Source of the DNA: Chromatiaceae bacterium
GTDB lineage: Bacteria; Pseudomonadota; Gammaproteobacteria; Chromatiales; Chromatiaceae
Assembly (NCBI GenBank): GCA_024639005.1
Contig: JAHEJD010000001.1
Location: 1 to 64,000 of the forward strand
Reading direction: 5' to 3'
Length of the DNA: 64,000 bases
The position numbers and the translations under genes were made by a program. Below the pieces are notes generated by a model, which saw only the letters and a list, made by a program, of their open reading frames with translations, was not told the DNA's origin and searched no databases. This document shows positions 4,078 to 36,692 of the stretch, one piece after another. Each line of letters opens with the position of its first letter. Within the stretch, counting starts at the first letter, position 1.

Positions 4078-4203
4078 GCGTCGCAGTCCCCAGGATCAGA
4101 TCAGCAACGTCTTTTGCGAGAACGCCGCGCCCTGGCAGTTTCCAGACACGGCGCCTGTTTAGCCAACGGCGTGGTCAACGTAGCCTGGAAATCTCCAGGC
4201 CAG

Positions 4204-4380
4204 TCTGCAAATGTCACCGTTTTTCGTCGCGAGGGTGTCGAGACGCCGTCATGGCGGGGCGCACGCCGTGAAAGACGGTGAAGGGCGTTGCTGACACTGC
4301 GTCAAACCGGCTGTAGCGAGAGCGTCCCGTTAGGGCGCGTGTATCGCCGCCCGCAGCAGGAGGTCGGTGAGATCTCCAGG
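4204..4380 (+). repeat. MITE-like element family 1, copy A (most diverged), ~177 bp
   Basis: Left end TCTGCAAATGTCACCG, right end CGGTGAGATCTCCAGG; interior aligns by eye with copies at 5970 and 35972. Confidence 0.75.
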
Positions 4381-4408
4381 CTAAAGATCTGCCGCCGGCA
4401 GGCGGTCA

Positions 4409-5713
4409 TTAGTGTCTGGTGGCCTTCTTTTTGGTCTTTGCCGTCTTCTTGCCGGCCACCGGCTGCTTGCGCACGGTCTTCTTGACGACCGCCTTTTTCG
4501 TCGGCGCCCGCTTGACTGCGGACTTCTTTGCAGTGGACCTCTTGCCAGACGCCTTCTTGACGGCTGTTTTCTTTACCGAGACCTTTTTGGCGGAGGCCTT
4601 CTTGCTGGCCGATTTTCTCACTGCGGCCTTTTTCACTACCGACTTCTTGGCGACCGCTTTCTTCGCGCCAGCCTTCTTTGCGGCGATTTTTTTCGCGGCC
4701 ACTTTCTTGGTGGGCTTTGTCTTGGCCGCTGCCTTCTTGGCGGTCAGCTTCTTTGCCGCAGTCTTGGACGTCGCGGTCACCTTGCGTGCCGCCGGCTTTT
4801 TCGCCGCCACCTTCTTCGCAGGCTTCTTCTTGGGCGCCGACTGTTTGGCCACGGTCTTCTTCACTGCCTTTTTCTTGGCCGCTGCCTTCGTCGCTGCGAC
4901 CTTGTCTGGCGCGGTCTTCTTCGCCGGTTTCCGCTTGGCCGATTCTTTCGCCGGTACGGCTTTCGCGGCTTCAGGCACCGCTTGTTTCTTTGACGCACCC
5001 CGGGCGCTCGGCTTGGTCTTGGCGGCCTCGCTGGCCTCGGCCGGCGCACTTTCCGGCAGCGCCTTCGGTGGCATCGCATCAATCAGCTTGCGGACCACCT
5101 TCCAGGCCTTTGCCGGCCCCTGGTCGGCCTGAACCCGCTGCAGCTTTTCGTGCAGAGCGTAGTACTGCAGCAAAGGCCCCATCTGGTTTTCATAGACGCG
5201 CAGTCGATTACTGATGGTCTCTTCATAGTCATTCGGCCGGCGCACGACACGGGCCCCGCATTCGTCACAAACGCCCTCAACCAGCGGCGGATTGAAGTAC
5301 ATATTGTATTGCGCGCCGCAGTTGTCACAGGTGATGCGTCCAACCAGACGCTCCATCAGCTCATCGCGGTCGACCTCAAGATTCAGCACCAGCTCAATCT
5401 CGGCGGCGAGATCGCCGAGCACACTGTCCAGGACATCGGCCTGGCCCGCATTTTTTGGCAGATCGACCAGGATAAAGCCCTTGCTGAGGTCCATCTGCGG
5501 CATCTGGATGCGCAATAACGCCAGTAGAAGCTCATCCGAGACGCGCGACATGTCCATGGCCTCTTTGGCCAGCCGACCCAGTTCTGTCTGCTCGGCCGCG
5601 GCGCGCCGCATAACGCTGCCGACGGTGATCACCGGCATCCCGTAATGCGCGGATATCTGCTGGGACAGCGCCCCCTTCCCTGAACCGGGGGGGCCTAGTA
5701 GAACGATCCTCAT
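4409..5713 (-). CDS. Adenylate-kinase-like nucleotide kinase with Zn-type LID and long histone-H1-like Lys/Ala-rich C-terminal tail
   Basis: MRIVLLGPPGSGKGALSQQI Walker A; CDNC-X16-CDEC LID; RPNDYEETISNRL; residues ~219-434 dominated by K/A (AAKKxxAKK) repeats. Confidence 0.9.
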   Translation of the reverse strand: MRIVLLGPPGSGKGALSQQISAHYGMPVITVGSVMRRAAAEQTELGRLAKEAMDMSRVSDELLLALLRIQMPQMDLSKGFILVDLPKNAGQADVLDSVLGDLAAEIELVLNLEVDRDELMERLVGRITCDNCGAQYNMYFNPPLVEGVCDECGARVVRRPNDYEETISNRLRVYENQMGPLLQYYALHEKLQRVQADQGPAKAWKVVRKLIDAMPPKALPESAPAEASEAAKTKPSARGASKKQAVPEAAKAVPAKESAKRKPAKKTAPDKVAATKAAAKKKAVKKTVAKQSAPKKKPAKKVAAKKPAARKVTATSKTAAKKLTAKKAAAKTKPTKKVAAKKIAAKKAGAKKAVAKKSVVKKAAVRKSASKKASAKKVSVKKTAVKKASGKRSTAKKSAVKRAPTKKAVVKKTVRKQPVAGKKTAKTKKKATRH

Positions 5714-5811
5714 GTTGGCTCCTCAAAGGGCGTTTTCTTGTTGTGGCAGACGCCTGACGACTGCTGCCCGACCGATTTCTGATCGAGTGAGCGATGCGCC
5801 CTGAAATGTAA

Positions 5812-5828: not shown

Positions 5829-5969
5829 TATGGGGGCATGCGCGTTTTGCATTGGCTGGCCCGTGCCGAGTTGCCTAAGCTAATCGCAGATTAATTTGGC
5901 TGTCAACGAAGCGACTGATTTTTCGCGAATTTTAGCCCGTTGTCGGAAATAAACGACTAATCGGCCCAG

Positions 5970-6145
5970 CCTACAAATTTCACCGTTCTTCGTAACGAGG
6001 CTGCCGAGACGCCGCTGTGGCGGGGTGCACACAGTGGAAGGCGGTGAAGGGGTAGTCGACACTACGTCGAACCGACTGCAACGAGTACGCCCCGTCACGG
6101 CGAGCGTATCGGGGGCCGCAGCAGGAGATCGGTGAGATTTGCAGG
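5970..6145 (+). repeat. MITE-like element family 1, copy B, 176 bp
   Basis: CCTACAAATTTCACCG ... CGGTGAGATTTGCAGG terminal inverted repeats; internal GTAGTCGACACTAC shared with copy C. Confidence 0.88.
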
Positions 6146-6238
6146 CTAGGATTCCTTGCCGACAAAAAATGTACAATCCGCTGCTGTCATTCGTCGTGGT
6201 CGATTTCGCGATCGGCTCCGGTTCATTGATCAGGTCGC

Positions 6239-6598
6239 ATGAGCACTATCCCAGACATCACAGAGACTGAGGATTGGATCGTCAAGACCACGCTGAAAGA
6301 GCGCTACGGTGGCGATATCGATCTGCAATATGCCGATGCGGAAATCCGCCTGAATCCGGCCGACCGCGAACTGACGACCTGCCCGGTTTTCGTCTGGGAG
6401 TCCGACGGCTGCCATTTTGTCATCTTCAAGAGCGGGGAAAGGCGCTACCGTTGCCAGTTCTTTTTCCGCGGCTACCAGCAGTACGGGACAGGGGTCCATG
6501 AGTACGACGACTTGACCGAGTGCGCCGTGTCGCTGCTCCAGGCGCAGGCAGATCACGTCGCCCGCGAGCGCGGTGACATCGATAGCAAGCGACGCTGA
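6239..6598 (+). CDS. Hypothetical protein (119 aa)
   Basis: Intact ORF directly upstream of and co-oriented with the PPi-PFK gene; no family recognised. Confidence 0.7.
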   Translation: MSTIPDITETEDWIVKTTLKERYGGDIDLQYADAEIRLNPADRELTTCPVFVWESDGCHFVIFKSGERRYRCQFFFRGYQQYGTGVHEYDDLTECAVSLLQAQADHVARERGDIDSKRR

Positions 6599-6649: not shown

Positions 6650-7906
6650 ATGCCGGCGAAAAACGCCTTTTATGCCCAATCCGGCGGGGTCACCGCCGTA
6701 ATCAACGCCTCGGCCTGCGGCGTGATCGAGACTGCGCGTCAGCATCCGGACCAGATCGCCAACGTGTACGCAGGACGCAACGGCATCATTGGCGCCCTGA
6801 CCGAAGCGCTGATCGACACCAACCAGGAGTCGGCCGAGGACATTGCTGCGCTCAGGCACACCCCGTCCGGGGGTTTCGGCTCGTGTCGTTTCAAGCTTAA
6901 GAGCCTGGAGGACAACAAACGCGAGTACGAGCGCCTGATCGAGGTCTTCAAGGCACACGATATCGGCTATTTCTTCTACAACGGCGGCGGCGACTCGGCG
7001 GACACCTGTTTCAAGGTCTCTCAACTGTCGGAGAAGATGGGCTTCCCAGTGCAGGCCATCCATGTGCCCAAGACGGTCGACAACGACCTGCCGATCACCG
7101 ACAACTGCCCGGGTTTCGGCTCGGTCGCCAAATACATCGCTGTGTCCACGCTCGAGGCGAGCTTCGACGTCCGCTCGATGGCCGCCACCTCGACCAAGAT
7201 CTTCGTGATCGAAGTGATGGGACGGCACGCCGGCTGGATCGCGGCGGCGGGCGCGCTGGTAGAAGATGAGGGCATCCCGGTTGTCACCCTGTTTCCAGAG
7301 GTCGAGTTCGACAAGGACAAATTCCTCGCCGCCGTCGACACCAAGGTGAAACAGCACGGCTACTGTACCATCGTGGTCTCCGAAGGCTGCCACTGGCCGG
7401 ACGGCAAATTCCTGGCCGAGCAGGGTACACGTGATTCCTTCGGGCACGCCCAGCTTGGCGGCGCCGCACCCGTGGTCGCCAACATGATCAAGGAGGCACT
7501 CGGCCACAAATTTCACTGGGCGGTCGCCGACTACCTGCAGCGTGCGGCCCGCCATCTCGCCTCCGCCTCTGACGTCGAGCAGGCCTTTGCGCTGGGCAAG
7601 GCGGCGGTGGAGAAGGCGCTCGAGGGTAAGAACTCAATTATGCCGACCGTGGTGCGCACCGCGAACAGCCCGTACCGCTGGGAGATCGGCGAGGCGCCAC
7701 TGAGCGAAGTCGCCAACGTCGAGAAGATGATGCCGATGGATTTCATCGCTGATGACGGCTTCGGCATCACCCAGAAATGCAAGGACTACCTGTACCCGCT
7801 GATCCAGGGCGAGGCCTACCCGCCGTACAAGGCCAACGGCATGCCCGACTATGTGACCCTGAAGCTGTCCAGTGTGCCACGCAAGCTCTCCGACTTCGAA
7901 CTCTGA
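6650..7906 (+). CDS. 6-phosphofructokinase, PPi-dependent type
   Basis: FFYNGGGDSADT and PKTVDNDLPITDNCPGFGS motifs of the PPi-type clade (Lys in PKTVDND rather than PGTIDND). Confidence 0.92.
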   Translation: MPAKNAFYAQSGGVTAVINASACGVIETARQHPDQIANVYAGRNGIIGALTEALIDTNQESAEDIAALRHTPSGGFGSCRFKLKSLEDNKREYERLIEVFKAHDIGYFFYNGGGDSADTCFKVSQLSEKMGFPVQAIHVPKTVDNDLPITDNCPGFGSVAKYIAVSTLEASFDVRSMAATSTKIFVIEVMGRHAGWIAAAGALVEDEGIPVVTLFPEVEFDKDKFLAAVDTKVKQHGYCTIVVSEGCHWPDGKFLAEQGTRDSFGHAQLGGAAPVVANMIKEALGHKFHWAVADYLQRAARHLASASDVEQAFALGKAAVEKALEGKNSIMPTVVRTANSPYRWEIGEAPLSEVANVEKMMPMDFIADDGFGITQKCKDYLYPLIQGEAYPPYKANGMPDYVTLKLSSVPRKLSDFEL

Positions 7907-35971: not shown

Positions 35972-36147
35972 CCTGCAAATCTCACCGTTTTTCTAAACGA
36001 GGGCGCCGAGACACCGCTATGGCGGGGTGCGCGGAGTGGAAGGCGGTGAAGGCGTAGTCGACACTACGTCGAACCGCCTGCAACGAGTACGCCCCGTCAG
36101 GGCGAGGGTATCGGGGGCCGCAGTAGGAGATCGGTGAGATATGCAGG
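35972..36147 (+). repeat. MITE-like element family 1, copy C, 176 bp
   Basis: CCTGCAAATCTCACCG ... CGGTGAGATATGCAGG; right end overlaps tsaC start. Confidence 0.9.
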
Positions 36148-36692
36148 TTAAACTGCAATATGCGGCCCGGGTGCTGCGAGCCGGTGGCGTGGTCGCCTAC
36201 CCGACCGAGGCGGTATTCGGGCTGGGGTGTGATCCCTGGAACCAGGCCGCGGTGCTGCGCCTGTTGGCGATCAAGCAACGCCCGATGGATAAGGGCCTGA
36301 TCCTGATCGCCAACCGCCTCGAGCAGCTCCTGCCCTTCCTGCGTCCACTCGGAACCGAAGTCGAGCAGCGTCTCCGGGAGACCTGGCCCGGACCGGTGAC
36401 CTGGTTGCTGCCGGCCCGTCCGGCGGCCCCCCGCTGGCTGCGTGGCCGACATAGTAAGCTCGCCGTTCGCGTCACGGCACACCCGCTGGCGGCTGCGCTG
36501 TGCGAGGCCTTCGGCGGGCCCATCGTGTCGACCAGCGCCAACGCGAGCGGACGCCCACCCGCGCGCTCGGCACTACATACCCGCCTGCGCTGCCCCGGCG
36601 TGGATCTCATCCTTTCCGGTGCTACCGGCGGACTGGCACGCCCCACCCCGATTCGCGACGCCCTGAGCGGCGAGGTGCACCGCCCCGGTTGA
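36141..36692 (+). CDS. tsaC: Threonylcarbamoyl-AMP synthase
   Basis: VVAYPTEAVFGLGCDPWNQAAVLRLLAIKQRPMDKGLILIA, SLAVRVT-like KLAVRVTAHPLAAALCEAFGGPIVSTSANASG. Confidence 0.95.
   Translation: MQVKLQYAARVLRAGGVVAYPTEAVFGLGCDPWNQAAVLRLLAIKQRPMDKGLILIANRLEQLLPFLRPLGTEVEQRLRETWPGPVTWLLPARPAAPRWLRGRHSKLAVRVTAHPLAAALCEAFGGPIVSTSANASGRPPARSALHTRLRCPGVDLILSGATGGLARPTPIRDALSGEVHRPG

Follow-up and report, generated by a model that had tools for sequence, protein, structure and literature searches.

A probable adenylate-kinase-derived pseudoenzyme with a histone-H1/Hc2-like tail in a gammaproteobacterial genus

Introduction

Adenylate kinases (Adks) are among the best-studied and most conserved enzymes. 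Residues T15, R36, D84 and R88 (E. coli Adk numbering, which we use for all catalytic residues) are generally intact in NMP kinases, and loss of D84 is expected to cripple phosphotransfer by Adk. Arg88 contributes to the binding of AMP, and Arg36 is paired with Asp33 within the AMP arm; Adk mutated at Lys13 is inactive (PMC4325324). The protein that we describe here resembles the zinc-LID Adks of the Bacillus type (PF00406 plus PF05191; PDB 1zin and 5g3y), with which its kinase-like domain shares 38–44% identity, the fold, the P-loop GxxGxGK, the four LID cysteines and the ATP-side arginines. Unlike these enzymes, it lacks the AMP-arm and DGFPR/Mg residues, has a one-residue deletion near residue 57 and carries a basic tail of 217 residues. 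Precedent for a nucleic-acid-related, non-housekeeping role of an Adk-like protein comes from the Fap7/AK6-type ATPases of ribosome assembly (PMC4019466), a different subfamily for which no H1-like tail is noted.

Similar tails are known from other proteins. Chlamydial Hc2, which binds DNA and RNA, is built of lysine-rich pentamers in which two positions are basic and the others mostly Ala, Val, Thr or Pro (PMC2848022). Our protein shares with the Chlamydia Hc2/Bordetella BpH1 type (PF07382) pentads of this kind (the three non-basic positions mostly A/V/T/S/P; PMC2848022), the variable length and the near absence of negative or aromatic residues; it differs in that an Adk domain precedes the tail. 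In Pseudomonas, the H1-like tails of AlgP and PhaF bind DNA and position polyphosphate (polyP) or PHA granules (PMC9239181). The logic is the same, a folded head followed by a disordered, strongly positive, K/A-rich tail of about 150–200 residues (PMC9239181), but the AlgP and PhaF heads are helical or granule-binding and their repeats are KPAA tetrads, whereas our protein has an Adk head and pentads.

Among database models, NCBIfam NF010381 (PRK13808) describes an adenylate kinase of 335 residues, longer than usual; it matches residues 1–127 of our protein at 91 bits, a match limited to the kinase part and far under the cut-off of 426. This family presumably has a basic C-terminal extension, and the existence of this longer model means that tailed Adks may already have been catalogued. 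In the open-access texts that we searched, we found no description of a tailed Adk, intact or decayed. Adk, the zinc LID and Hc2-like tails are each known already; the surprising part is a form that is decayed yet under selection.

Results

Architecture of the tailed protein

We analysed a stretch of 64,000 nucleotides of DNA, referred to as the window. The gene and its parts are as follows:

4409..5713, minus strand: coding sequence of the tailed adenylate-kinase-like protein, 434 aa (open reading frame, Pfam, congener comparison)
5719..5724, minus strand: SD-like GAGGAG, 5 nt upstream of the ATG (sequence)
5063..5713, minus strand: Adk-fold domain, residues 1–217 (Pfam ADK and ADK_lid, AlphaFold2, Foldseek)
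5669..5695, minus strand: P-loop GPPGSGKGA, residues 7–15 (alignment)
5606..5626, minus strand: degenerate AMP-arm motif TVGSVMR, residues 30–36, canonical STGDMLR (alignment)
5453..5467, minus strand: degenerate signature VDLPK, residues 83–87, canonical DGFPR (alignment)
5258..5329, minus strand: intact zinc-type C4 motif of the LID, C129/C132/C149/C152 (alignment)
4412..5062, minus strand: histone-H1/Hc2-like Lys/Ala tail, 217 aa, 5-residue period (HC2 match, autocorrelation, 15-nt repeats)

A sequence-only reading of this locus had proposed that an Adk-like domain is fused to a Lys/Ala tail of about 215 residues, and the fusion is real: the frame is open over 434 residues, and the tail is present in all eight congeneric genomes (open frames of 453–506 aa) and in many families. 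An assembly or frameshift artefact is ruled out by the same in-frame occurrence in every congener and many families. Pfam ADK (PF00406) matched residues 5–187 (6.7e-34) and ADK_lid (PF05191) residues 126–160 (2.1e-14), and Pfam HC2 (PF07382, histone-H1-like) matched residues 240–378 of the tail (3.1e-16; 60.5 bits against a gathering score of 40). The protein passes the cut-off of the adk subfamily model TIGR01351 (172.3 against 168) and falls under every listed NCBIfam Adk equivalog cut-off, the best being NF001380 at 211.8 bits against 251. AlphaFold2 predicted the Adk domain with a mean pLDDT of 92.6 (49 related sequences supplied); the top Foldseek matches of this model were adenylate kinases only, with TM up to 0.84–0.86 against E. 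coli Adk. The LID has exactly the predicted CX2C-X16-CX2C spacing (C129-X2-C132-X16-C149-X2-C152). The Walker A motif held in part, as GPPGSGKGA retains K13 and the Thr of GKGT is lost.

The tail (residues 218–434) contains 69 K, 8 R, 58 A, 6 D+E and no F, W or Y, for a net charge of +71 over 217 residues. Its K/R autocorrelation peaks at lags 5 and 10, DNA repeats within the tail-coding part are spaced 15 nt apart, and the units are xxxKK pentads, as in chlamydial Hc2. Such units, each with two basic residues and otherwise A/V/T/S/P, agree with how Hc2 has been described (PMC2848022); thus "H1-like", including the comparison with AlgP and PhaF, was the right description, as the HC2 match bears out, and "heptad-like" AKK/VKK units was not. 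A heptad-like repeat is ruled out by both the autocorrelation and the DNA spacing.

Active-site changes and selection within the genus

We aligned the nine proteins of the genus with E. coli Adk, and other untailed Adks were listed for comparison. Relative to E. coli Adk, T15, T31, D33, D84, G85 and R88 were lost in 9/9 genus members. Position 15 is Ala in the window protein and Glu in all 8 congeners, and the remaining replacements are genus-wide (T31V, D33S, D84V, G85D and R88K). R36 is replaced by Q in 8/9 members and kept only in the window protein, such that T15/T31/D33/R36/D84/R88 read A,V,S,R,V,K in the window protein and E,V,S,Q,V,K in the congeners. All untailed Adks listed for comparison have D84, T15, R36 and R88 intact. 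The DGFPR signature ([LIVMFYWCA]3-D-G-[FYI]-P-R-x3-[NQ], a pattern that we take to be of PROSITE type) is missing in 9/9 members, the window protein reading FILVDLPKNAGQ, and is found in the canonical Adk of the window genome. Kept in 9/9 members are G7, G10, G12, K13, Q92, R119, R123, R156, D159, R167 and the four LID cysteines; the window protein thus has the P-loop lysine and the ATP-side arginines (K13, R119, R123, R156, R167). These residues suggest that the protein has lost Adk activity and has retained nucleotide binding.

The kinase domain has a dN/dS of 0.09–0.10 within the genus (median 0.093 over 36 pairs from nine species). The AMP arm, where the changes are greatest, ranks with its most constrained regions (dN/dS 0.066, identity 0.89), and dN/dS is also low in the LID. 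With values of 0.09–0.10 overall and 0.066 in the AMP arm, the gene is therefore not a decaying pseudogene; its product is a folded, selected protein.

Intact and decayed tailed Adks across Gammaproteobacteria

A profile of eight tailed domains, run against 370 genomes from the class and 194 from the family, revealed tailed Adks in dozens of families of the Gammaproteobacteria. Of the 80 loci that we extracted with flanks, 79 are tailed. We defined a copy as decayed if two or more of T15/T31/D33/R36/D84 were changed and as intact if at most one was. By this definition, 45/79 tailed copies are intact (43 of them with no change at the five catalytic positions) and 34/79 are decayed, 32 of the 34 within the window's family.

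The decayed set retained all four LID cysteines (34/34, as in 45/45 intact copies), K13 (32/34), R119 (32/34), Q92 (32/34) and R156 (30/34). Far fewer of these copies retained D84 (6/34), D33 (6/34), R36 (8/34), T31 (9/34) or T15 (10/34), and a DGFPR-type signature occurs in 3/34 decayed as against 44/45 intact copies. Pairwise identity falls from 0.73 in the intact set to 0.29 in the decayed set for the AMP arm and from 0.64 to 0.58 for the LID. Together, the conservation counts and identities place the loss on the AMP and phosphotransfer side and the retention on the ATP and LID side. The tail is no shorter and no less charged in decayed copies (median 204 aa and +74.5 net charge) than in intact ones (187 aa and +62). 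The tree requires at least six changes between the intact and decayed states, and the replacements differ between decayed lineages. Some decayed copies are mildly altered, for example L136 (G14R, D33E, R36K), and such copies may be active. Loss of the tail is possible, as two untailed intact Adks (L059 and L065, in genomes G298 and G211) are nested among the tailed ones.

The tailed adk is divergent from a gene for PPi-dependent phosphofructokinase (pfp) at 34/34 decayed loci and most intact loci, often with a gene for a 119-aa protein between the two and an H+-pyrophosphatase beyond. Given this common layout, the decayed and intact forms are positional orthologues. In the window, the two neighbors are:

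6239..6598, plus strand: conserved 119-aa protein between adk and pfp (synteny, AlphaFold2)
6650..7906, plus strand: PPi-dependent 6-phosphofructokinase, the syntenic, divergent neighbor (NF010675, 5.8e-190; synteny)

One adk or two per genome

The second, canonical adk that the sequence-only reading had proposed to look for is present in the window genome (C24:51079-51621). It is untailed, of the E. coli type, and holds all the catalytic residues that the tailed copy has lost; a canonical adk is likewise present in 7/8 congeners. That the tailed gene is the sole adk of the window genome is thereby ruled out.

Elsewhere, 37 genomes seemed to have only a tailed copy, and a Pfam ADK check confirmed one Adk in each. 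In 32 of these 37 genomes, the sole tailed adk is intact (e.g., G036, G020, G044, G237 and G134). A decayed copy with no second adk found occurs in four genomes: G461 and G426 (one genus, 90–91% complete), G417 (72%) and G005 (80%). The copies in G461 and G426 (L105 and L112) are strongly decayed; either a contig is missing in both assemblies, or these cells live without a standard Adk. If a second adk is truly absent from these four genomes, the decayed protein, or PPK2-type enzymes, must supply the activity. The sole tailed Adk of another genome (L090 in G529) has the P-loop GAPDSGEGT (G10D, K13E); its sister genomes are intact, and these changes may be a MAG error.

In the tree set, sole copies are intact in 26 cases and decayed in 4, and copies in genomes with more adks are intact in 37 and decayed in 36. 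The association of a second adk with decay of the tailed copy has a Fisher p of 0.0007 over related rows that are not phylogenetically independent, and an independent-pairs sign test had too few informative pairs to have power. It is a reasonable inference that the second adk came first and decay followed.

Discussion

We propose, with a probability of roughly 0.6, that the window protein is an Adk-derived pseudoenzyme or nucleotide sensor whose H1/Hc2-like tail binds nucleoid DNA, RNA or polyP. Its gene is a positional orthologue of a tailed Adk that in many Gammaproteobacteria is a complete enzyme and frequently has no second adk beside it. For the lineage of the window, the untailed adk would supply the housekeeping activity, whereas the tailed protein would have become pseudoenzyme-like, its AMP arm and phosphotransfer residues replaced and its fold, P-loop lysine and glycines, ATP-side arginines and zinc LID kept. 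In the most likely mechanism, the tail would bind a polyanion electrostatically, nucleoid DNA and/or RNA and possibly polyP granules. The domain would serve as a folded head, possibly responsive to ATP or ADP through closing of the LID on nucleotide, that modulates or positions binding by the tail. Sequence data establish the architecture, residue losses, selection, distribution and synteny of tailed Adks; from them we infer that Adk activity is lost, that nucleotide and polyanion would be bound, and any regulatory coupling between head and tail. A broader version is more tentative, and we would not put it at even odds: that Adk pseudoenzymes arose lineage-wide from an H1-tailed Adk after another Adk took over housekeeping and are now ATP/ADP-responsive, nucleoid- or polyP-associated proteins that link energy charge to chromosome or polyP organisation.

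Several other readings use the same evidence. The protein could be an active nucleotide kinase of changed specificity or cofactor, acting on another phosphoryl acceptor or transferring phosphate without D84, R36 and R88, and localised by its tail. The retained ATP-side residues and LID cysteines agree with this, the genus-conserved altered AMP arm (dN/dS 0.066, identity 0.89) would fit a new acceptor site, and the genome is rich in polyP and PPi enzymes (ppk1, four PPK2 domains, PPi-PFK and H+-PPase). However, D84, T15, R36 and R88 are intact in all the untailed Adks listed, and the replacements vary by decayed lineage, which points to relaxation more than to one new specificity; we consider such a kinase unlikely. 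Selection might instead act on the tail alone, as an H1/Hc2-like nucleoid protein for which the kinase domain is a carrier or a dimerisation or solubility head with no nucleotide role. All decayed copies retain the tail, the AMP arm drifts freely across genera, and Hc1 and PhaF likewise join an unrelated head to such a tail (PMC2848022; PMC9239181). Yet conservation is far higher at K13, the glycines of the P-loop, R119 and the LID cysteines than at the AMP-side residues, which would be unexpected if nucleotide binding were not needed, and dN/dS within the genus is low in both the LID and the AMP arm; we regard a function of the tail alone as quite improbable.

The sequence-only reading had suggested that a nucleotide kinase with such a tail could tether adenylate metabolism to the nucleoid, RNA or polyP; on this account, the protein would be a working Adk that tolerates the substitutions. 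The pass against TIGR01351 (172.3 against 168) and the four genomes with a decayed copy and no other adk found speak for a normal Adk, but R36, D84, R88 and T15 are lost together (R36 in all but the window protein), scores lie under all listed equivalog cut-offs (e.g., 211.8 against 251) and a canonical adk lies elsewhere in the window genome. For the window protein, this account is very improbable in view of the genus-wide loss of AMP-binding and phosphotransfer residues; the idea of an Adk tethered to a polyanion is plausible, and fits better, in other lineages whose tailed Adk is intact and often the sole adk.

If tails bind as proposed, adenylate equilibration would be attached to a polyanion in the many cells whose sole adk is H1-tailed. 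The decayed descendants, which strong purifying selection maintains, would form a bacterial family of pseudo-nucleotide kinases linking nucleotide state to the nucleoid, RNA or polyP. Having intact and decayed forms at the same locus provides a natural experiment on the role of the tail once catalysis is gone.

Other features of the locus and genome

Besides ppk1 and two single PPK2 genes, the window genome has a 502-aa open frame with two tandem PPK2 domains (contig C129, 11220-12686). A further gene (L182, 1507-2124, minus strand, on C57) encodes an AlgP/PhaF-like protein of 205 aa with KKKVA pentads in its tail. With ppk1, the PPK2 genes and this small H1-tail protein in one genome, DNA, RNA and polyP are all possible targets.

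The 119-aa protein is conserved between pfp and the tailed adk at about 40 loci, which span many families. It matched nothing in Pfam or NCBIfam; AlphaFold2 predicted a helix, five strands and a helix (pLDDT 90.5), for which a search of the PDB returned nothing significant (best E 0.11).

A search of Rfam near the tailed adk gave no RNA element match of note. The gene is flanked by two same-orientation copies of a dispersed, MITE-like element of about 185 bp, which has no Rfam match and lies in the window at 4200-4383, 5966-6148 and 35972-36150 (plus strand). An origin of the fusion from these flanking repeats is ruled out, as they belong to a family of about 40 copies and the fusion is far older. 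The element has imperfect terminal inverted repeats of about 18–28 bp and occurs at about 40 places in the genome, in both orientations.
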